A stretch of DNA of 33,780 bases, taken from IMG/VR virus record IMGVR_UViG_3300037460_000319, positions 1-33,780 of that record; one strand, written 5' to 3'. Positions within the stretch are counted from its first letter, which is position 1, and each line of letters begins with the position of its first letter. A model generated the notes under the pieces. It saw only the letters and a program-made list of their open reading frames with translations. It searched no databases and was not told the DNA's origin. This DNA is from a virus. The position numbers and the translations under genes were made by a program. Of the stretch, positions 3,907-33,780 are shown piece by piece.

Positions 3907-3935
3907 ACTATAGCCGTGACGGCGTCACATGTCAA
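3907..3935 (-). promoter_or_regulatory. Sigma70-type promoter with palindromic operator in spacer (P1)
   Basis: Read leftward: -35 TTGACA (3930-3935), 17-bp spacer, -10 TATAGT (3907-3912). The spacer contains the perfect odd palindrome GTGACGGCGTCAC (3916-3928). The same palindrome sits in the same place in the promoters at 15751-15779 and 29480-29508. A protein bound there would block RNA polymerase. It drives 3361-3873 and the genes after it. Confidence 0.85.
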
Positions 3936-15022: not shown

Positions 15023-15330
15023 GGTATCACCTTCATTGCTCTGTGGTACGCCGACGTAGGCTCGATTGGTCGGCCCTTGTCGAGGACCGCTTTCATCTCG
15101 GCCAGAAGGGCTAAGAGTTCGTCATGGGTTGGTGCGTCAGTGGGTACGACGAGCGACAGCGGGTGGTCGCTTCCGAAGGTGGAGTCGATCAGTTGTCCCG
15201 CTTTGGGGCCTTCTGCTTCTCTCCAATAGCCGTCACTCCCACGCAATGAACTGTCACGGGGGTCCACCTCGAGCATACGCACGTCAAGGCCGTTCTTCGT
15301 TTTGTAGGTTTCTCCTAGCTTGAATCTCAT
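15019..15330 (-). CDS. Protein of unknown function
   Basis: 103 residues from ATG 15330, whose ATGA overlaps the stop of the HTH gene. The longer upstream frame runs through the HTH coding region and is rejected. The N-terminal part is strand-rich with a KTKNGLDVRMLEVDPRDSSL segment resembling short KOW/SH3-like phage proteins. The C-terminus is helical (HDELLALLAEMKAVLDKG). It lies between the HTH regulator and a small membrane protein. No function is recognised. Confidence 0.62.
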   Translation of the reverse strand: MRFKLGETYKTKNGLDVRMLEVDPRDSSLRGSDGYWREAEGPKAGQLIDSTFGSDHPLSLVVPTDAPTHDELLALLAEMKAVLDKGRPIEPTSAYHRAMKVIP

Positions 15331-15716
15331 GTCAGTTCTCCAGGTGGCATTGGAACCACAACGTGTTTGATAAGCGCGGAGTGCACGGGTTCTAAAGGGC
15401 TGTCCAGGCTGTAGTACAACCGCATCTCGCCGATCTTCTCCACAATAGTGCGTTCCCACTGCCCGTTATACTTGGCATAAACAAAGTGGCGTCCGGGCGC
15501 TATAGACTCCTCGAACTCACGGCGAGTCATACGCTTGGGCGTGCTGCGGCTCAACTCTAACTGAGCCCGTGCACTGATCAGTGCGTAGTCAGGTATGGCG
15601 GCGGTGGTGCGCCATGACTTGTAGGTGTCCTCTGGCACCCCTAGCCGCTCGGCTGCCTGCGGCTGGGTGAGTTTCAGCTCACTGCGGATTGCTTCTAGGT
15701 CGGTCCATGTGTCCAC
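15327..15716 (-). CDS. HTH (Cro/CI-like) protein, candidate repressor of the palindromic operators
   Basis: 129 residues from GTG 15716, with a strong ribosome site (GAGGAG, 7-nt spacing). The first 50 residues form a helix-turn-helix: SELKLTQPQAAERLGVPEDT with the recognition helix following (YKSWRTT). The C-terminal half (residues 70-129) is strand-rich and shares its style with small phage early proteins (FVYAKYNGQWERTIVEKIGE). It is the first gene behind the promoter at 15751-15779, which carries GTGACGGCGTCAC in its spacer. Autoregulation is therefore a plausible inference, with the promoters at 3907 and 29480 as further targets. Confidence 0.7.
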   Translation of the reverse strand: MDTWTDLEAIRSELKLTQPQAAERLGVPEDTYKSWRTTAAIPDYALISARAQLELSRSTPKRMTRREFEESIAPGRHFVYAKYNGQWERTIVEKIGEMRLYYSLDSPLEPVHSALIKHVVVPMPPGELT

Positions 15717-15750: not shown

Positions 15751-15779
15751 AGTATAGGCGCGTGACGGCGTCACGTCAA
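15751..15779 (-). promoter_or_regulatory. Sigma70-type promoter with palindromic operator in spacer (P3)
   Basis: Leftward reading: TTGACG (15774-15779), 17-bp spacer, TATACT (15751-15756). The palindrome GTGACGGCGTCAC lies at 15762-15774, shifted 2 bp toward the -35 compared with the other two copies, so that it shares one base with it. It drives the HTH gene and the small membrane-protein genes downstream. Confidence 0.83.
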
Positions 15780-25455: not shown

Positions 25456-26204
25456 TGACTACACAGCAGAAAGCTAAAGGCGCGGTACAGCTAGCAGCTA
25501 GCCCACAGGGGGCGGCTAAAGGGGCCGTGCAGGTTAAGCACCCCGCGGGTGACGCCATCACCGGTGATGTAACAGTCACGCAAACCGCCAACGCCGCAAT
25601 GGAGTACGCTCAGCACTCAGCGTTCTCCGGTGCTGTCACACTGACCCAAACAGCCAACGCGGTGATGGGTTTCTCCTCTGGGTTCAGTATCACGGGCGAT
25701 GTTACCGTTACGCAGACGGCCAATGGCGTCATGGACTACGCCCAACACAACACCATCACTGGCGACGTTACCGTTACGCAGACGGCCAACGCGGTGATGA
25801 GCTTTTCATCTGGCGCGGCGATTGTGGGCAACGTCACTCAAACGCAGATAGCCAATGCGGTGATGGCTCACCAGTTTAACGCCTCACTGGTCGGTGGTGT
25901 TACGCTGACGCAAACGGCCAACGCAACAATGGCTTACGCTCAACACCCTGTGATCACTGGTGCGGTAACGCTCACACAAACCGCTAACGCTGTGATGAGC
26001 TACACCACAGGGTTCAATATAACAGGGGATGTGACGCTCATACAGACCACTAATGCCGTGATGACGTACTCCTCATCGGAGCCGTTCGACCCGTTGGCCG
26101 CCCGTGTTATACTCAGAGTGCTGTACCCACAACGCACGTTCAGCGTGCCGTACCCACAACGCACGTTCAGCGTGCCGTACCCACAACGCACATTCAGGGC
26201 TTGA
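25455..26204 (+). CDS. 22-residue repeat structural protein
   Basis: 249 residues from ATG 25455, one base overlapping the beta-helix stop. It has a basic start with two AKGAVQ units, then eight exact-length 22-residue repeats (residues 35-210) with the core ITGDVTVTQTANAVM followed by alternating YAQH-type and FSSG-type ends. It closes with three 9-residue units (PYPQRTFSV). The strand-turn look suggests a repetitive beta-solenoid or fibre whose length can vary with repeat number. Position between a beta-helix protein and the portal fits a virion surface protein. No similarity to a known family was recognised. Confidence 0.7.
   Translation: MTTQQKAKGAVQLAASPQGAAKGAVQVKHPAGDAITGDVTVTQTANAAMEYAQHSAFSGAVTLTQTANAVMGFSSGFSITGDVTVTQTANGVMDYAQHNTITGDVTVTQTANAVMSFSSGAAIVGNVTQTQIANAVMAHQFNASLVGGVTLTQTANATMAYAQHPVITGAVTLTQTANAVMSYTTGFNITGDVTLIQTTNAVMTYSSSEPFDPLAARVILRVLYPQRTFSVPYPQRTFSVPYPQRTFRA
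25557..26084 (+). repeat. Eight 66-bp tandem coding repeats
   Basis: Each unit codes for exactly 22 residues with no length variation. Units 1, 3 and 6 carry YAQH and units 2 and 4 FSSG, so the original unit was probably a 132-bp pair. DNA identity is high between some units and lower in units 5 and 8. Confidence 0.92.
26123..26198 (+). repeat. Three 27-bp tandem repeats at the gene's 3' end
   Basis: Copies at 26123-26149, 26150-26176 and 26177-26198 (last one incomplete). The first two are identical and the third differs at one base before diverging. They code for PYPQRTFSV units, the first preceded by Leu. Confidence 0.95.
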
Positions 26205-26206
26205 CG

Positions 26207-26503
26207 ATGGAAAATTTGACAACCACCAAACCCGTTTGCTCTGATGAGCCGTTCACGCTGAAGTGGATAGATTTCTATACCGAATTCGACCTAGACCCCG
26301 ACGTTTACCCGATCACTACTAGTGTGTGGGAGGCGACAGGCGTCACAGCTGGCGACAGCATCATCGCCACGCCTAACACCTCGCAATGGGCCTCAGGCGG
26401 GGCAGTTGGCGTGGCGGCCTCACTGAAAAACACTATTAGCGTTGTAGTTGGGGCCAGAACGTACCGATCATGTAAGACTATCGACATCACAATCACTGAG
26501 TAG
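26207..26503 (+). CDS. Probable small structural protein, Ig-like style
   Basis: 98 residues from ATG 26207 (AGGG 8 nt upstream); the TTG at 26201 is less likely. The sequence has the alternating strands of small beta-sandwich virion proteins: FTLKWIDFYTEFDLDPDVYP, SVWEATGVTAGDSIIATP, then NTISVVVGARTYRSCKTIDI. Similar small proteins lie beside portal genes in several phages. Role as a head or neck accessory is inferred. Confidence 0.6.
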   Translation: MENLTTTKPVCSDEPFTLKWIDFYTEFDLDPDVYPITTSVWEATGVTAGDSIIATPNTSQWASGGAVGVAASLKNTISVVVGARTYRSCKTIDITITE

Positions 26504-26508
26504 CAGCT

Positions 26509-27876
26509 ATGAGCGATAAAACATACACAGGGCCAGAGGTCGCCGAGCTGATCAACAAGGTACTAGCCACCAATGCAGCTGACCCCGCCTATGCGGTGCG
26601 CCAGCGCATGGCAGCGCAGATCAGCGGCGGCTATGACTGCGGCGACACCTTGCACAACATCTACCTCGATTACGGTTACCCCGCCACCCTGGACTTCTTC
26701 AATTTTTGGAACATGTACCGCCGGTTTGGGCTTGCTACTCGTGTTGTGGAGCTGTATCCCGATCAAACGTGGCTTGATGATCCTGAGGTTGAAGGCGACA
26801 CCCGTTTCAACAGCGAGCTAGAGAAACTAGAGAAGCGCCTCGGCCTATGGCGTCAAGCTAAAGCCCTTGACACGTACCAACGGGTAGGCCGATACGCCGG
26901 GCTGTTCATGCGCGTGCGTGACAACAAGAAGCCCAACGAACCGCTTGAGGGCGTGCTGCCGAGTGCTGACAGCCTTATGGGCATGATGCCGATATATGAA
27001 GGGCAGCTCAAAGTGTTGGAGGTGGACAACGACCCTATGTCAGACACCTTCAGTCAACCTAAAATGTACCAGTTCGACGAGGGGGCGACAGGCAGCCGGA
27101 ATGAGCTATCATCGTCATCGTTCAGCATACACCCGAGCCGCCTTATCATAGCCGCCGAAGGGGCGAACAGTGGCAGTATCTATGGCATACCGGTGTTAGA
27201 GAGCATCTACAATTCATTGATGGACTTGCGCAAGATCTTCGGCGGTGGTGGCGAAGGCTTCTATAGGAACGCCGCCCAGAGCACCGTATTTGACATCAAA
27301 GACGCTGCTAGTGTGAGCCAGAATAAGGCCCTACTAGAGGAGTTTAACGAGCAAGCCGACGACTTTCTACAGAACCGTATGCGTAGGTCGATGATGACCC
27401 CAGGCATGGAGGTCACCGCGTTACAATCCAACCTGATCAACCCTAAAGATTTCGCGCTTAACTCACTAATGGACGTCACGTCCGGTGCGAAAACGCCGAT
27501 AATGCTACTAGTGGGCAACCAGACCGGCCGCCTTGCGGGTGACCAAGACAACAAGAGCTTTCTTACCCAAGTGAACGCACGGCGCAAGGGCTTTGGCACT
27601 GAGATCGTCACGTCTATGGTCGACTGGTGCGTGCGGTACGGTGTGCTGCCCGCATCTGAGTATGAGGTCGAATGGCCTGACGCCATGGCACCGTCTGACA
27701 CTGAGAAGCTGACCGACGCGAGCAGCATGGCCACGATCAACAAGACTCAATACGAATCGGGCGGAGAGATACCGTTCAGTGGTGAAGAGATCCGCGAACA
27801 GGCGGGCTATAAACCTAACAAAACACTGGAGCTGCCACCTGATGAGAGCCTGGGTGACGATAACTTGCAGCCCTGA
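26509..27876 (+). CDS. Portal protein (DUF1073 type)
   Basis: 455 residues from ATG 26509. The body matches DUF1073-type portals: LHNIYLDYGYPATLDFFNFW, then MYRRFGLATRVVELYPDQTW with DDPEVEG, ALDTYQRVGRYAGLFMRV, HPSRLIIAAEG, YGIPVLESIYNSLMDL, and the C-terminal QTGRLAGDQDNKSF tunnel-loop neighbourhood. It would form the 12-subunit ring at the capsid vertex through which DNA passes and to which terminase docks. Size is normal for the family. The next gene lies 48 bp downstream. Confidence 0.88.
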   Translation: MSDKTYTGPEVAELINKVLATNAADPAYAVRQRMAAQISGGYDCGDTLHNIYLDYGYPATLDFFNFWNMYRRFGLATRVVELYPDQTWLDDPEVEGDTRFNSELEKLEKRLGLWRQAKALDTYQRVGRYAGLFMRVRDNKKPNEPLEGVLPSADSLMGMMPIYEGQLKVLEVDNDPMSDTFSQPKMYQFDEGATGSRNELSSSSFSIHPSRLIIAAEGANSGSIYGIPVLESIYNSLMDLRKIFGGGGEGFYRNAAQSTVFDIKDAASVSQNKALLEEFNEQADDFLQNRMRRSMMTPGMEVTALQSNLINPKDFALNSLMDVTSGAKTPIMLLVGNQTGRLAGDQDNKSFLTQVNARRKGFGTEIVTSMVDWCVRYGVLPASEYEVEWPDAMAPSDTEKLTDASSMATINKTQYESGGEIPFSGEEIREQAGYKPNKTLELPPDESLGDDNLQP

Positions 27877-27924
27877 CGATTAGCGCCTATGCTTGTGGCT
27901 CAGAGTTAATTAGGAGAGCACGAC

Positions 27925-28281
27925 ATGATAACCACCACGATAAAAGGTTTACCGGAATTTGAAGGTAAAGGAATTCTGATAGAGGCGGACAGGCGGGGGC
28001 ACGAGATTTTAATGCTACTAGGTGACGATTTTAAAGCCAAAGACCGTATAATCGTTGGCCTCGCCAGTATGCTGTACGAAAGCAACGCGTTTAATGAATT
28101 GGAGCCACCCTACCAAGTAACCGAGCTTGACCCCGCCGACCCTAAGCACAAAGAGATGAAAAAATCCTTTGACGAGGTGCGGGGGCTGATGGTGCCTGAG
28201 CCGCCACCCGTACCACCTAAACGCTTACTCAGTGAGGACGTGCGCCCCTGGTTCACACGTGGGTGGCCGCCGTGGGTGTAA
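27925..28281 (+). CDS. Protein of unknown function between portal and head morphogenesis gene
   Basis: 118 residues from ATG 27925 (GGAGAG upstream). The start (KGLPEFEGKGILIEADRRGH) leads to an alpha/beta part, and the C-terminus is Pro-rich (VPEPPPVPPKRLLSEDVRPW). It overlaps the following gene by 19 bp. Similar small acidic proteins with Pro-rich ends occur by phage portals, but I know no function. Confidence 0.65.
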   Translation: MITTTIKGLPEFEGKGILIEADRRGHEILMLLGDDFKAKDRIIVGLASMLYESNAFNELEPPYQVTELDPADPKHKEMKKSFDEVRGLMVPEPPPVPPKRLLSEDVRPWFTRGWPPWV

Positions 28282-29216
28282 AAACCCTACACGACCCCAC
28301 CGGTCAAGCGCGTAACCGGTTCAAAGCCACACGGCTACTACAGAACCGGTTAACGCTGGCCGAGCGCAAGGTCAAGGCCCTGTTTCGCACCGTCCCCCGT
28401 ACGCGTAGGCGCGAAGCTGTCATCCGTAACGTCGAACAGGTGACGGTCTACGACTACCAGATCACAGCTACAGAACTCGAGCAGCTAGACCAACAGATCC
28501 GGGCACTCGTGCGCGAAGAGCTGCTAGAAACTCAGATGGAACGCATGCCGCCGGGTTGGTGGTGGCAGGACGTCATAGAGCTACCGTATCGCCAGGGCAC
28601 CGCCGAAGAGGTCGTAGACTTTAACAGCCTGATCACCGCCGCTATTATCGCCTTAGGCCTGAAGCGTGGGCTACAGGTGCGGAAACTTGATGTAGGTCAA
28701 GTGCTGCAGTCCCTTGAGTACCAGACCGCCCTCAATAACGTTTACGTTCGCAACTTCTCCAACATCAAGACGCTAACCGACCGTACAGCCGATCAGGTGG
28801 TCGGTGTGATCAACCGTGGTATGGAAGCGGGCCTGACACCTACCGAGATCGGCCAACAGATCAGCGACCGATTTGACGTGAGCCGTTCCAGTGCACAGCG
28901 TACCGCCGTGACTGAGGTCAACAAGGCCTACACCGACGCCCGCATGGACGCCGGAGACGTGGCAGCCGCTCAGACTGGGTTGCGCGCTGCCGTGTTACAC
29001 ATATCGGCGCTACTGCCTACCACCCGGAAGCACCACGCAGACCGCCATGGAAACTCCTACACGACAGCGCAGCAGCGGAAGTGGTGGTCGGAAGGTGTAA
29101 ATCGAATTAACTGCCACTGTTCGGTGCGTTCTGTGCTCGTTGATGCGCGTGGCCGGGTGATAGACATCGAGCTACAGGAAGAGATTAAGGCTGAGAGGAG
29201 CTATTTTGATGAGTGA
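28263..29216 (+). CDS. Minor head / morphogenesis protein (Mu gpF, SPP1 gp7 type)
   Basis: 317 residues from GTG 28263. The N-terminal half is helical. The C-terminal domain carries the family signature: QISDRFDVSRSSAQRTAVTE, VNKAYTDAR, then HHADRHGNSYTTAQQRKWWS and VNRINCHCSVRSV, which is the usual H..RHG..Y and N-C-x-C ending of these proteins. In SPP1 and Mu this protein binds the portal and helps load it or accompany DNA. It follows the portal as expected. Confidence 0.85.
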   Translation: MAAVGVKTLHDPTGQARNRFKATRLLQNRLTLAERKVKALFRTVPRTRRREAVIRNVEQVTVYDYQITATELEQLDQQIRALVREELLETQMERMPPGWWWQDVIELPYRQGTAEEVVDFNSLITAAIIALGLKRGLQVRKLDVGQVLQSLEYQTALNNVYVRNFSNIKTLTDRTADQVVGVINRGMEAGLTPTEIGQQISDRFDVSRSSAQRTAVTEVNKAYTDARMDAGDVAAAQTGLRAAVLHISALLPTTRKHHADRHGNSYTTAQQRKWWSEGVNRINCHCSVRSVLVDARGRVIDIELQEEIKAERSYFDE

Positions 29217-29472
29217 GCCGAACAGCCGTGAATGCTTCGAGGCGTTCATGGGTGCGCGGGGGCTGCTCCAAGTTGAGTGGCTGGAAACTGGCTGGGCGTT
29301 CTGGTGTGCGACCCGTTGGTACAGGGTGGTATTCGTCCACGACCGTACCGGAGAGGTAACGTGCATGTCTAGGCCGTACGAACCGATGTCCCACCACGGG
29401 GCGTGCGTGTTTAAAAGTAAGATGATGCGCAGAGAGCACGGCCGACATATGCTATCGGAAGTGTCGCGATGA
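29209..29472 (+). CDS. Small protein of unknown function
   Basis: 87 residues from ATG 29209 (GAGGAG 9 nt upstream), overlapping the end of the head gene by 8 bp; the TTG at 29206 is not needed. It is Trp- and Met-rich (LQVEWLETGWAFWCATRWYR, VVFVHDRTGEVTC). It ends just before the operator-bearing promoter at 29480. Not recognised. Confidence 0.62.
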   Translation: MSEPNSRECFEAFMGARGLLQVEWLETGWAFWCATRWYRVVFVHDRTGEVTCMSRPYEPMSHHGACVFKSKMMRREHGRHMLSEVSR

Positions 29473-29479
29473 GTATCGC

Positions 29480-29508
29480 TTGACATGTGACGGCGTCACG
29501 GCTACTAT
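29480..29508 (+). promoter_or_regulatory. Sigma70-type promoter with palindromic operator in spacer (P2)
   Basis: TTGACA (29480-29485), 17-bp spacer, TACTAT (29503-29508), with GTGACGGCGTCAC at 29487-29499. From TTGACA to ACGGCTA it is the same as the promoter at 3907-3935 apart from the central base. It lies in the middle of the late head genes and serves the short gene 29545-29739. Confidence 0.87.
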
Positions 29509-29544
29509 GTGTACAACATCAACGAAAACAGAGAGCCGAGACTA

Positions 29545-29739
29545 ATGGGCTATAAGCTAAAGGACGTCATGCACGAAACGGAGAACTACTGGGTTTTACG
29601 CGTCGTTAACGGCTTCGAGGTGTACAAAAACGGTATTACGCACTCCACAAGATGCGCTCAAATTGGGTGGAAGGGTGACGTAGGGCTAAACAAGGCCATC
29701 GCTGAGTGTGAGAAGCGCGAGGCGGCGGCCACTAGTTGA
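29545..29739 (+). CDS. Small operator-controlled cassette protein
   Basis: 64 residues from ATG 29545. An in-frame GTG at 29509 lies before the predicted transcription start and is rejected. The protein, MGYKLKDVMHETENYWVLRV and onward, has a short strand-rich body (GFEVYKNGITHSTRCAQIGW) and an acidic/basic helix end (NKAIAECEKREAAATS). Its TGA lies inside the -35 of the next promoter. Having its own regulated promoter inside the head block marks it as an accessory (moron-like) gene that is probably expressed on a different schedule. Confidence 0.7.
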   Translation: MGYKLKDVMHETENYWVLRVVNGFEVYKNGITHSTRCAQIGWKGDVGLNKAIAECEKREAAATS

Positions 29740-29764
29740 CACCCCAGCCGATTAGCCGTAGTAT
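29736..29764 (+). promoter_or_regulatory. Sigma70-type promoter of a predicted small RNA
   Basis: TTGACA (29736-29741), 17-bp spacer, TAGTAT (29759-29764). Initiation is expected near 29771. No open frame follows before the terminator at 29805-29839. Confidence 0.8.
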
Positions 29765-29770
29765 CTACCG

Positions 29771-29838
29771 CATAACGTCTCTGTCCTCCACCCATTTAGA
29801 CGCGCCCTCAGTTGCTCTTGCCGCTGGGGGTTTTTTTT
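29771..29838 (+). ncRNA. Predicted small RNA with an exposed anti-Shine-Dalgarno sequence
   Basis: About 68 nt from the predicted start to the end of the U-tract. The 5' part can form GUCU (29777-29780) with AGAC (29798-29801), exposing a 17-nt loop that contains UCCUCC (29784-29789), complementary to GGAGGA ribosome sites. The 3' part is the terminator hairpin. This is the layout of a trans-acting RNA that blocks translation, but the short 4-bp stem is weak and expression is not known. Confidence 0.55.
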
Positions 29839-29839
29839 T
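29805..29839 (+). terminator. Rho-independent terminator
   Basis: Stem CCCTCAG (29805-29811) with CTGGGGG (29824-29830), six Watson-Crick pairs and one G-U, 12-nt loop, then nine T. It ends the predicted small RNA. Confidence 0.82.
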
Positions 29840-29870
29840 GTTGACCTGTCGGGCGACGCGCTGTACGGTG
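29840..29870 (+). promoter_or_regulatory. Possible promoter of the CxxCH gene
   Basis: TTGACC starting at 29841 with 17 bp to TACGGT. The -35 is good but the -10 is poor, so strength is doubtful. Confidence 0.35.
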
Positions 29871-29915
29871 AGCGGGCAAGTTAACTTTGTCCAACAACCT
29901 TAAAATGGTGAATTC

Positions 29916-30251
29916 ATGAATAAGTTTTTCCTCTCCCTACTCGTAATGGCGGCGTTGTGCCTCCCATTCACGGTATCAGCTGTTGAGTTTAGCCCCGGCT
30001 ATACTGTTGCTGCCAGCGGCCATCAATGCGACGGCTGTCACACCGCTGAAAATACTGGAACCTTACCCACATCAAGCGTCACTACCGGTGGTAAAACAGG
30101 CGTTGCGCTTGTTTCTCCTACCTCCAAAGCTGAGTACAGCCGTGTCGTAGCAATGGCCGGGGGCAGTCCGAACGGTGACGGGAAAAACATTTGCATGGCG
30201 TGTTCAGTGCCGCTTGAGGTCAGTTTAGTTTCAGAACGACAGCCCTTCTGA
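29916..30251 (+). CDS. Secreted protein with CxxCH haem-binding-type motif
   Basis: 111 residues from ATG 29916. A clear Sec signal peptide (MNKFFLSLLVMAALCLPF) with likely cleavage after VSA at residue 22 gives an 89-residue exported protein. It contains HQCDGCHTAE (Cys38, Cys41, His42), the c-type cytochrome haem attachment motif, and a second pair CMACS (Cys93, Cys96) where the His of a second CxxCH is replaced by Ser. It stands alone between two terminators in the head block, a moron layout, and probably changes the host envelope or periplasm. A haem protein, a thiol-binding protein, or a decayed doubled-CxxCH protein are all possible. Confidence 0.7.
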   Translation: MNKFFLSLLVMAALCLPFTVSAVEFSPGYTVAASGHQCDGCHTAENTGTLPTSSVTTGGKTGVALVSPTSKAEYSRVVAMAGGSPNGDGKNICMACSVPLEVSLVSERQPF

Positions 30252-30276
30252 CGAATAGCCCATAGAAGATTAAAGG

Positions 30277-30307
30277 AAAGCCGCTTCTCACGAGGCGGCT
30301 TTTTTTT
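30277..30307 (+). terminator. Rho-independent terminator
   Basis: Perfect 8-bp stem AAAGCCGC (30277-30284) and GCGGCTTT (30295-30302) followed by a T-run to 30307. It lies 26 bp after the CxxCH gene. Confidence 0.9.
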
Positions 30308-30325
30308 ATTCCTTGATTTTTACGC

Positions 30326-30471
30326 TATAATGTCGTTAGATTGGTATAGGTGGCAGCCCTAGGGGCTTTAATCGTAAAACCTTTACGGTATCACGGCCGC
30401 TCGCACACACCGCCGAGGTGTTCTACCGTCGCGAGACTGGGAGACTCGGCACCTAACTGTCGGGAGACAGA
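30326..30471 (+). promoter_or_regulatory. Intergenic region with possible promoter before the protease gene
   Basis: After the terminator the gap to 30472 holds no gene. TATAAT (30326-30331) has no good -35. TTAGATTGGTATAGG (30336-30350) repeats the element upstream of the terminase gene with one change, suggesting a shared late-gene signal. The rest is GC-rich and shows nothing else I can name; GGGAGA before ATG 30472 is the ribosome site. Confidence 0.4.
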
Positions 30472-31827
30472 ATGCCTAAAAGAATATTGATGCAGTGCTC
30501 GACCCTCGTAGCCCGGAACGCCGTAACGCGGACCACCATTGACGGCGTTGAACACATTATCGTTAGCTCACGCACGCTGCCAGACAACATCGTAATGAAT
30601 GGCGGCCTGTATCCTGCCGACGAGATAGAAAGCAGCTACGAGACCCTCGAACGTACTCCCGCACCACTCGAACACCCCCACGACAGCAACGGAAACTTTC
30701 TCACTGCCGTCGACCCCGTAGCAATAAACAATTTTTACGTTGGAGCCTACAACGCAAACGTCCGCCGTGAGAACGGCCGCGTACTGCTCGACAAGGTGAT
30801 CAACGTACAAGAAGCCCTCAAGACTGATCGCGGTAAACGCCTGCTTGATCGTATTGATGAGCTAGAGACCAGCGATGACCCCCGCCCTGTTCACACCTCA
30901 GTAGGTGTGTTCTTGGATGTCGAGGAGTTAGACGCACCACAGCGCAACGAGGCGGGCCTAGAGTACACCTGGGTAGCCCGCAACATGTACTTTGACCATG
31001 ATGCTCTTCTGCTTGAATCTGTAGGCGCCGCACAGCCACACCAGGGCGTTGGCATGGCGGTCAATCGCAGCGGACTAGAGATGGACGTTCAGCACCATGA
31101 GTTGACAGCCAACGAGCTTGTGACCATCGAAGTCACACCAGGCGACAACATGAGCGCTGGTGAGATCTACAGCGCCCTAGAAGATGCCATACGTAAGCCC
31201 CCGCTGAACGGCCAATACATCGAAGAGTACTACCCCGAAGACGGAAAAGTGGTCTTCTGGTCCGGTGAAATCCTATTTTCTGCCCCGTACAAAATAACGG
31301 ACGGGATAGCCCAAATCGTAGGAATCCCGCTCCCTGTGGAGCGCGATGTTACGTACGTACCCCGAACCAACCAAACAGGTGACCTAATGAAAAAGCTTAT
31401 CATCGAGGCTTTGGCCGCTGCCGGAGTGACGGTTAACGCCGAAATCTCCGACGCTGAGCTTAAGATCGAATACGACAAACTGACCGATAACGCCGAAAAA
31501 GATCAGGTGGTGCCTGGCGATAATGCCGAGGCTATCGGCCTAGCTATCACCAACGCTATGAAGCCCTTGACCGATAAAATCGACGGTCTTGAAGCGAAGA
31601 TCAACCAGACCGGCGAGGCAGAGCTTGAACGTTTAGCTGGTCTCATAGGCAACAATGAGAAATACCCAGGCATTGACGCTGCAGCCGCTAAGAAGTTGGG
31701 TGTTGAAACGCTCACCTCTATGGTGGCTAACTGCACACCCGCCCACGGTATCCCAGACCTGTCGCTAGTAGGCAATAACGACAGCTGGAAAGACCTCGAC
31801 ATGCCTAACGCAAAGAAGGAGGGTTAA
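30472..31827 (+). CDS. Prohead protease with C-terminal scaffold domain (DUF2213-like)
   Basis: 451 residues from ATG 30472. The N-terminal ~200 residues look like a DUF2213-type capsid maturation protease: TLPDNIVMNGGLYPADEIES, APLEHPHDSNG (a His that would be catalytic), GRVLLDKVINVQEALKT and DPRPVHTSVGVFLDVEE (a Ser that would be the nucleophile). From about residue 306 the sequence becomes helical and acidic (MKKLIIEALAAAGVTV and on), with the look of a scaffold. Protease-scaffold fusions just before decoration and major capsid genes are common: the scaffold guides shell assembly and is then degraded. A nested start at 31387 may make the scaffold alone. Confidence 0.78.
   Translation: MPKRILMQCSTLVARNAVTRTTIDGVEHIIVSSRTLPDNIVMNGGLYPADEIESSYETLERTPAPLEHPHDSNGNFLTAVDPVAINNFYVGAYNANVRRENGRVLLDKVINVQEALKTDRGKRLLDRIDELETSDDPRPVHTSVGVFLDVEELDAPQRNEAGLEYTWVARNMYFDHDALLLESVGAAQPHQGVGMAVNRSGLEMDVQHHELTANELVTIEVTPGDNMSAGEIYSALEDAIRKPPLNGQYIEEYYPEDGKVVFWSGEILFSAPYKITDGIAQIVGIPLPVERDVTYVPRTNQTGDLMKKLIIEALAAAGVTVNAEISDAELKIEYDKLTDNAEKDQVVPGDNAEAIGLAITNAMKPLTDKIDGLEAKINQTGEAELERLAGLIGNNEKYPGIDAAAAKKLGVETLTSMVANCTPAHGIPDLSLVGNNDSWKDLDMPNAKKEG
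31387..31827 (+). CDS. Nested in-frame scaffold protein
   Basis: ATG 31387 is in frame with the protease gene at codon 306 and is preceded by AGGTGA at 6 nt. It would yield a 146-residue helical protein identical to the protease's C-terminus, with the DKIDGLEAKINQTGEAELER coiled-coil-like segment. Lambda Nu3 is made this way inside gene C. Expression here is inferred from the ribosome site and the domain border coinciding. Confidence 0.6.
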   Translation: MKKLIIEALAAAGVTVNAEISDAELKIEYDKLTDNAEKDQVVPGDNAEAIGLAITNAMKPLTDKIDGLEAKINQTGEAELERLAGLIGNNEKYPGIDAAAAKKLGVETLTSMVANCTPAHGIPDLSLVGNNDSWKDLDMPNAKKEG

Positions 31828-31830
31828 GTC

Positions 31831-32298
31831 ATGGCTAAAGGTAAAAATCTAGTCTACGTCGGCCCTGCTGACGGAGCGAACCGCCACCCTGCTAACGTCG
31901 AGGGTGTGGCTGTGGCCGCTATCCTACCGGGTACGCTGGTTGAACACGCAGCCGCAGACGCCGGGCTACAGGTTAACGCTAACGCCGCCACCGTATTCGA
32001 CGGTATCCGCCTTGTTGCTGACAAAGATCAGCAGCGCACCAAGTCAATGACCGACGCTTGGACCATCAACGAAAACATGGTGGCCATCGACCCACGTCCT
32101 GGTGAATTCTTCAATATCTTAGTGGTCACCGGTCAGGCTCTGGTAGTCGGCACACCGCTCACTCGAAATGGTGCAGGTTTGCTTAAGATTGCGGTCACCC
32201 CAGCGACTATCGGCGTGACAAGCGAAGAGGTGCTGTTTCACTCAGACGAGACCATCACTACTTCCGGTACTCAGCTTGTCCGCGTTAAAGCGATTTAA
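31831..32298 (+). CDS. Head decoration protein
   Basis: 155 residues from ATG 31831, 3 bp after the protease stop. It is beta-rich with Ala/Val content: NVEGVAVAAILPGTLVEHA, NAATVFDGIRLVADKDQQ, NEFF-type turns (GEFFNILVVTGQALVVGTPL) and GVTSEEVLFHSDETITTSG. This fits the lambda gpD-like or related outer-capsid stabilising proteins usually encoded between protease and major capsid. It would bind the three-fold sites of the expanded shell; assigned by style and synteny. Confidence 0.72.
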   Translation: MAKGKNLVYVGPADGANRHPANVEGVAVAAILPGTLVEHAAADAGLQVNANAATVFDGIRLVADKDQQRTKSMTDAWTINENMVAIDPRPGEFFNILVVTGQALVVGTPLTRNGAGLLKIAVTPATIGVTSEEVLFHSDETITTSGTQLVRVKAI

Positions 32299-32309
32299 GG
32301 AGCTATGAA

Positions 32310-33374
32310 ATGATTTTTGATTCTAATTTACCGGGCAACAACCGCTCGACTGTCTCCCAATGGGTAGAAGTCAACGCGGCCCGTAGAATGGCCGCAGCAA
32401 ACGAAGCGATGCACACGCTAACCATGAGGCGAGCGGGTGTAACGGTAGTCAACGAAGGGCTTATCCCTCGCGACGTCTACCAGGACTTCGACAATGTAAC
32501 CGTTGAGGTTATGCACTCAGACGACGGCGACGCATACCTGAATGATCTGCTCGCCCTCTCTAGCTCGGTCAGTATCGGTAAGCTTGTACAGAAATTCCGT
32601 AAAGCTTCCGACGCTGGCAACGCTCAGACCTCCATGACCGGCCAGATCGGAATTAAGATGGATCAGGTCGAATATAGCTACGACGGTGCCATCATTCCAA
32701 TTCATGACACCGCGTATACCCGAAATTGGCGTGAGTGGAACGCTATGACGTCTGAAGGCTTTGATGCTCTGATTGACGATCAACGCGAGTCTGTGCGCTC
32801 ATTGCGTCAACACATTGCCGACCAGTTCATGGATGGTCACGTGGACGCTCAGGGCAACCCTATCGTGGTTGACAGCCTATCGTGGTTGGGGATGCGTAAC
32901 GACTCCCGTGTAGAGTCTATCGACTTAGGTTCTGGTGGTGTGAATTTCGATTTTACCGATAGTGCCCAAACAGGCGAAGCGATTAAAGCGGCACTCATTG
33001 AGGTTCGCGACATTATGCGGATTACCAATCTGTGCTCTAACGATATTACCTTCTACATCAGCCGTGAGATCGGCTCTAACTGGGAACGTCGTTTTTCTCA
33101 ACAGTACGCCGCTGATCTGATCTATGAAGAGTTGGCCAAGCTTGTTGGTATCGCAACCATCAAGCAGACCTCTAAGTTAACTGGTAATCAGTTGATGGGC
33201 TTTCCGTTGGACAGAAACCGTATTCGTGCGCTCGTTGGCATGGGCATTAACACCGTAGCTATGCCACGTCCGCTGTACAACTCAAATTACGAGTTTGCGG
33301 TGTGGGGTGCAGTAGGCTTCCAGGTCCGAACGGACTTCAACGGTAACACTTGCGCATTTTACGCAGCGGCTTAA
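32310..33374 (+). CDS. Major capsid protein (HK97-fold, DUF6260-like)
   Basis: 354 residues from ATG 32310 (AAGGAG upstream). Segments include NRSTVSQWVEVNAARRMAAA, LIPRDVYQDFDNVTVEVMHS, GKLVQKFRKASDAGNAQTSM, IPIHDTAYTRNWREWNAM, and a C-terminus with GMGINTVAMPRPLYNSNYEF and VWGAVGFQVRTD. The size and the strand ending typical of HK97-fold A-domains fit a major capsid protein, as does its place after protease and decoration genes. The family name is from memory of similar proteins. Confidence 0.85.
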   Translation: MIFDSNLPGNNRSTVSQWVEVNAARRMAAANEAMHTLTMRRAGVTVVNEGLIPRDVYQDFDNVTVEVMHSDDGDAYLNDLLALSSSVSIGKLVQKFRKASDAGNAQTSMTGQIGIKMDQVEYSYDGAIIPIHDTAYTRNWREWNAMTSEGFDALIDDQRESVRSLRQHIADQFMDGHVDAQGNPIVVDSLSWLGMRNDSRVESIDLGSGGVNFDFTDSAQTGEAIKAALIEVRDIMRITNLCSNDITFYISREIGSNWERRFSQQYAADLIYEELAKLVGIATIKQTSKLTGNQLMGFPLDRNRIRALVGMGINTVAMPRPLYNSNYEFAVWGAVGFQVRTDFNGNTCAFYAAA

Positions 33375-33385
33375 GGGGAACAACT

Positions 33386-33694
33386 ATGGCTAATAAGACA
33401 GTGAAACGCGTTGTAACCCATCCTCGTCTCACCATGCGTGTTGACGGGAAGCTACAACGCATCCCAGTCGGTACCGAGCTCACCCTCACTGAGGCACAAG
33501 CTGACAGCTCGTTCATGAAGAGTAGAACGGCTGACCCTAAGGACGTGAAGAGCATCAACGCTTCAGGCGAAGACGCTGCACCTGAAGGGAACGCAGAGCT
33601 TAAGAAGGCGCAAGCCGACTTGAAGACCCTGGCTGAGCAGTTCACGTTAGTTCAGAAAGAGAACGTAGCGCTTAAGAAAGCCCAAAAGCAGTAA
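33386..33694 (+). CDS. Small head-region protein with coiled-coil tail
   Basis: 102 residues from ATG 33386 (AAGGGG 7 nt upstream); an earlier in-frame start at 33350 is rejected because it lies in the capsid gene. The N-terminal half is a small beta part (RLTMRVDGKLQRIPVGTELT). The C-terminal half is a charged helix with heptads (LKTLAEQFTLVQKENVALKK). Similar proteins follow capsid genes in many phages and may join head assembly; no definite function. Confidence 0.68.
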   Translation: MANKTVKRVVTHPRLTMRVDGKLQRIPVGTELTLTEAQADSSFMKSRTADPKDVKSINASGEDAAPEGNAELKKAQADLKTLAEQFTLVQKENVALKKAQKQ

Positions 33695-33704
33695 AGCAAC
33701 AACC

Positions 33705-33724
33705 GGGCCGCCTTCGGGCGGCCC
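33705..33724 (+). terminator. C(UUCG)G hairpin after the capsid genes
   Basis: Perfect 8-bp stem GGGCCGCC/GGCGGCCC closed by the very stable UUCG loop with a C-G closing pair. No T-run follows, so it more likely protects or attenuates the abundant capsid mRNA than fully terminates. Confidence 0.7.
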
Positions 33725-33744
33725 ACTAACAACATGGGGGCGGC

Positions 33745-33780
33745 ATGCCTGCGACACTACCAAACGTCTCCATCCCCGCC
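33745..33780 (+). CDS. Start of next head/tail gene (cut by window edge)
   Basis: ATG 33745 is preceded by GGGGG at 4 nt. Only 12 codons are visible (MPATLPNVSIPA). By position it is likely to be a head-completion or neck protein. Confidence 0.5.
   Translation, partial: MPATLPNVSIPA

Follow-up and report, generated by a model that had tools for sequence, protein, structure and literature searches.

Very short RNA genes within phage insertions, RNAs launched from the stop codon of a protein gene and RNAs that display an anti-Shine–Dalgarno (anti-SD) loop have each been described, and the locus reported here resembles all three. AsxR (EcOnc02) and AgvB (EcOnc01) are sRNAs of 51–60 nt from E. 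coli O157 prophages, located at a phage moron site (PMC4104026). They share with the present candidate a position in a moron insertion site beside moron coding genes and a very short gene, but those two are found downstream of PR' in lambdoid prophages, are arranged convergently in pairs and have host sRNAs as their targets, whereas the candidate belongs to a head-gene cluster, shares the strand of its neighbours and carries an anti-SD loop. DapZ is transcribed from a promoter of its own, placed at the stop codon of a protein-coding gene whose terminator it shares (PMC9438474), an arrangement that the candidate is predicted to repeat; DapZ differs in being bacterial, with a conserved promoter and known targets, while the candidate comes from a phage and from one contig. 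Anti-SD sRNAs are known in Alphaproteobacteria, namely alpha-R8 and SisA–D of Caulobacter (PMC12559287). They and ar14 (RF02344), likewise alphaproteobacterial, for which the layout of loop and terminator was taken from the Rfam consensus, resemble the candidate in having a C/U-rich anti-SD motif in a hairpin loop that is followed by a terminator hairpin; the candidate is shorter, has a weak 5' stem and a terminator loop without an anti-SD motif, and scores far below the ar14 cut-off. A 2025 review describes many phage sRNAs, among them c4, which acts around a ribosome-binding site through its loops (PMC12197685), and within our limited coverage of the literature on phage-encoded anti-SD sRNAs, which makes this weak evidence, we found no phage sRNA with a UCCUCC loop.

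The DNA analysed here, referred to as the window, is a 33,780-base IMG/VR record that encodes a DNA polymerase, exonuclease, helicase, topoisomerase and primase, together with a terminase, portal, MuF-like protein, head decoration protein and virion structural proteins. The features relevant to the candidate are the following.

3907–3935, minus strand: promoter with an exact copy of the palindrome GTGACGGCGTCAC
15751–15779, minus strand: promoter with an exact copy of the same palindrome
29480–29508, plus strand: P0001 promoter, TTGACA-17-TACTAT, the spacer of which holds the operator-like palindrome (29487–29499)
29545–29739, plus strand: small gene P0001 of family phrog_20712, function not known, ATG at 29545 (frame open from GTG 29509)
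29736–29764, plus strand: candidate sRNA promoter of the sigma-70 type, TTGACA (29736–29741), 17-nt spacer, TAGTAT (29759–29764)
29772–29839, plus strand: predicted 68-nt small RNA, its start placed from the −10 box
29776–29802, plus strand: predicted 5' hairpin, 5-bp stem (29776–29780 paired with 29798–29802) and 17-nt loop
29784–29789, plus strand: UCCUCC anti-SD motif in the loop of this hairpin, from sequence and fold
29804–29839, plus strand: intrinsic terminator from the folding scan, GC-rich stem and T9, common to P0001 and the putative sRNA
29841–29869, plus strand: weak promoter-like site, TTGACC-17-TACGGT, a possible promoter of the CxxCH gene
29916–30251, plus strand: P0002, a 111-residue CxxCH protein with a signal-like N-terminus, from the ORF and profile searches
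30277–30307, plus strand: second intrinsic terminator from the folding scan, which closes the island
30313–30341, plus strand: promoter-like site TTGATT-17-TTAGAT before the DUF2213-like gene, similar in the related locus L016 and marking the right edge of the insertion

We read 29736–29839 as an sRNA gene that sits at the 3' end of a moron gene, with an anti-SD loop that would act on ribosome-binding sites, and give this reading a probability of roughly 0.5. The stretch is a real sequence feature and a plausible sRNA gene, for which we infer the function. The first-pass annotation had described a promoter followed by an intrinsic terminator with no open frame between them, and this description holds: the promoter matches the consensus at ten of 12 positions, the terminator has a predicted energy of −18.2 kcal/mol (stem 29804–29831, loop UCUU, nine T at 29831–29839), and the RNA contains no ATG or GTG, its two TTG triplets (29812 and 29818) both lying within the terminator hairpin. 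The accompanying description of the unit as having no gene is right in that 29772–29839 contains no ORF, but the unit is not quite gene-free, as its −35 box overlaps the TGA stop codon of P0001 (29737–29739). Owing to this overlap the same terminator, the first after P0001, serves P0001 too, so that by prediction both the promoter at the upstream stop codon and the common terminator of a 3'-end sRNA with its own promoter are present. Neither the ending of P0001 by this terminator nor the moron island to which the whole belongs was part of the earlier reading. Transcription would be expected to start near A29772. A suitable sigma factor and Hfq are assumed for this unit.

The candidate promoter is one of three ten-of-12 promoters among 11 promoter-like sites in a scan of 26000–33780. 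TTGACN18TANNNT sites number nine in the window, compared with an average of 0.85 per genome across 300 Markov genomes, none of which contained a three-promoter cluster within 400 bp like that at 29480–29869; the excess and the cluster together argue that promoters of this class are genuine in this phage, and we infer that the 29736 promoter is active. The terminator was absent from the output of a simple scan and was detected by the folding scan, in which only two terminators of the whole window have a T run of at least eight; these runs, at 29831 and 30300, flank P0002, and the terminator at 29804–29839 is the stronger of the two. When a unit was defined as a promoter of at least ten of 12 with a terminator 25–150 nt further on, the window contained one, the sole one of its kind, compared with one in total across 30 Markov-2 genomes and none, at a slightly stricter terminator cut-off, in 66 partly redundant related loci that include near-duplicate contigs (548 kb, 40 terminators). 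None of these 40 terminators had CCTCC in the 45 nt that precede its stem.

The strongest competitor, which we consider possible yet clearly less probable than the sRNA gene, is that the stretch is the plain 3' untranslated end of P0001, with the terminator belonging to the P0001 cassette, the promoter at the stop codon fortuitous or very weak and UCCUCC accidental. The P0001 family occurs elsewhere as an autonomous cassette, judging from sequence: promoter–gene–terminator arrangements in other phages (loci L069 and L073) account for a terminator without any sRNA. Klebsiella phage RCIP0108 has a P0001-family gene with a palindrome-bearing promoter and a terminator. In Salmonella phage FSL SP-038 such a gene, with its own promoter and its own terminator, separates the MuF-like gene from the coat gene and runs opposite to the head genes. 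The motif is also no rarity by itself, CCTCC being present in 451 of 20 000 random 32-mers. Against an accident stand the scarcity of ten-of-12 promoters, found in just 11 of 4000 random 100-nt stretches, and that of unpaired CCTCC within a fold at least as stable (25 of 20 000 random 32-mers), a frequency to be read with the fact that the loop was picked out post hoc.

Thirteen P0001 relatives were examined, ten fetched among 27 phage records (20 of them listed) and three viral loci; clear promoter–gene–terminator cassettes were seen in two, and the order of stop codon, promoter and terminator found in the window in none of the 13, in a scan that began past the stop codon and would thus not have listed the window's own 29736 promoter, which overlaps it. 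The idea that the sRNA travels with the P0001 family was therefore rejected. Ten records searched whole gave no P0001 match. In Klebsiella phage KP2025 (L068, 992–1027) a perfect 12-of-12 promoter, TTGACA-18-TATAAT, starts 6 nt past the end of the P0001-related gene, counted from its stop codon, and leads into nearly 780 bp without annotated genes, up to the end of the fetched piece; no strong terminator follows it there.

The 68-nt RNA is predicted to fold into two hairpins. Its stability was equalled by one of 200 shuffles (z = −3.2), mainly through the contribution of the terminator, while the 5' hairpin alone is weak (−3.2 kcal/mol, equalled by seven of 200 shuffles). The first-pass annotation had placed UCCUCC in a loop, and the computed fold agrees, exposing the motif in the 17-nt loop with an unpaired probability of 0.80–1.00, as expected of a trans-acting anti-SD sRNA. 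For several longer transcripts that include P0001, folding predicts a mostly paired loop (only about half paired in 29545–29839), which points to the short form as the one that would act. In the sRNA-gene reading, RNA polymerase would start at the promoter overlapping the P0001 stop codon and stop at the terminator shared with the P0001 message, presumably there because of its strength, releasing an RNA of about 68 nt. The U tail and stem would permit binding of an Hfq-type chaperone, and the exposed loop would pair with GGAGG-like ribosome-binding sites and block ribosome entry on phage messages, host messages or both.

Possible targets were assessed on 49 phage starts picked by hand from the ORF list. 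The first-pass annotation had spoken of GGAG/GAGGAG sites used by this phage; strong GGAGG-type sites are present but not general (five of the 49 starts, with some four-base SD match at 16). Pairing of the loop with the 49 start regions exceeds that of 298 of 300 shuffled loops and of 279 of 300 shuffles that keep UCCUCC, the other 21 equalling it. The pairing is thus only weakly above chance, and the latter figure points to no particular targets in the phage other than what a general match to SD sequences would give. The proposal of a stand-alone short anti-SD transcript survives as a sequence prediction that is hard to obtain by chance, but is tempered by this weak margin. A same-strand antisense regulator of P0001, the 5' part of which would pair with the coding region at about 29660–29681, appears very improbable. 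The duplex is predicted at −28.5 kcal/mol, as good in only six of 289 window blocks, and the predicted concealment of most of the loop in longer P0001 transcripts, although not in every length tested, would fit; once competing folds are counted, however, the gain shrinks to −7.7 kcal/mol, a value reached by 25 of 110 blocks from the window and, among shuffled versions of the 5' part, by 33 of 200. The P0001 mRNA was accordingly dropped as an sRNA target, being not above chance.

Downstream, P0002 begins 76 nt past the terminator on the same strand, and the promoter-like site at 29841 is weak; both would suit a promoter at 29736 that drives P0002 through an early-termination leader, with the terminator acting as an attenuator or being targeted by phage antitermination. 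We regard this as improbable: no alternative antiterminator fold was seen among the folds made, of the two terminators with long T runs this is the stronger, and a separate promoter-like site follows it. The first-pass annotation had named read-through that makes the transcript only the leader of the CxxCH gene as what would refute the sRNA; given the strong terminator and the separate, weaker site, this is unlikely. P0002 itself looks secreted, and its CDGCH is a heme-type motif. It has no relatives in the viral contigs, phages or plasmids, and the only NCBIfam indication was a weak one, for a choice-of-anchor V domain (14.8 bits against a cut-off of 42); it is possibly a host fragment acquired as a moron.

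The palindrome GTGACGGCGTCAC occurs exactly three times in the window (3916–3928, 15762–15774 and 29487–29499), each time between the −35 and −10 boxes of a TTGAC-17-TAnnnT promoter. The promoter at 15751–15779 lies directly upstream of an HTH-like gene (15327–15716, minus strand) with weak matches to phage repressors, and together the three copies resemble a set of phage-repressor operators, which would tie P0001 to that control. The 29736 promoter has no such operator, so that repression of P0001 would be expected to leave production of the sRNA unaffected. A bolder extension, which we consider a long shot, is that the moron RNA mimics the anti-SD tail of the ribosome: an always-on 68-nt RNA would throttle strong GGAGG sites of the host or a rival phage while P0001 is held by the repressor, giving a two-mode island that delivers RNA when repressed and protein when derepressed.

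Searches for relatives of the RNA returned little. Exact and slightly degenerate patterns of its core had no matches in viral_contigs and genome_contigs, and blastn of 29700–29920 against phages and plasmids gave just 33–40 nt matches (E 0.2–0.7) that were taken as chance. No Rfam family matched at its gathering score: ar14 reached 12.6 bits against 58.8 (E 1.3) and RybB (RF00110), at 29772–29839, 13.1 bits against 40 (E 1.3), so that neither assigns the candidate to a family. The suhB/mmgR family (RF00519), which we take to be the alpha-r8 family, had no match in 29736–29845 up to E 10; a match of 14.8 bits at 30235–30315 is at another site and below the cut-off.

The setting of the unit was defined by the gap between the MuF-like gene and the DUF2213-like gene. 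The latter matches phrog_760 (function not known), some named-phage relatives being annotated as DUF2213 or prohead protease; its relatives in genomes are distant (three loci). The gap is 1255 nt here, compared with 31–102 nt in 14 of the 18 relatives measured, the closest 18 of 26 loci with a MuF match, in which the gap sequences of L019 and L020 are identical; it is 246–274 nt in two others and about 1 kb in the remaining two. An 18-nt stretch from the short gap of L016, TATAATGTCGTTAGATTG, recurs at 30326–30343, past the second terminator. This is most simply read as the insertion of some 1.1 kb, from 29217 to about 30312, and the gap comparison places the candidate sRNA within it. By its gene content the insertion is a moron island, with P0001 behind a repressor-type promoter, the putative sRNA, and the CxxCH gene closed by the second terminator; an 88-residue ORF (29206–29472) that overlaps the end of the MuF-like gene and has no family match is part of it. 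If the RNA is made, the locus would clearly exemplify the gain of a stand-alone sRNA gene by the head-gene cluster of a phage, within a moron island; morons could then bring RNA regulators besides proteins, and an anti-SD loop like that of the alphaproteobacterial sRNAs would also occur in a phage.

The MuF/DUF2213-like gap seems, from the related loci, to accept extra DNA repeatedly. The insertion of about 1 kb in L012 apparently holds a separate reading frame, and that in L015 apparently lengthens the MuF frame considerably. L005, too, has a long gap, of 246 nt, before its DUF2213-like gene. In the window, the leader of the DUF2213-like gene (the 30313–30471 region) is 127 nt long and G+C-rich, with a predicted fold at z = −2.0 that was equalled by seven of 200 shuffles.
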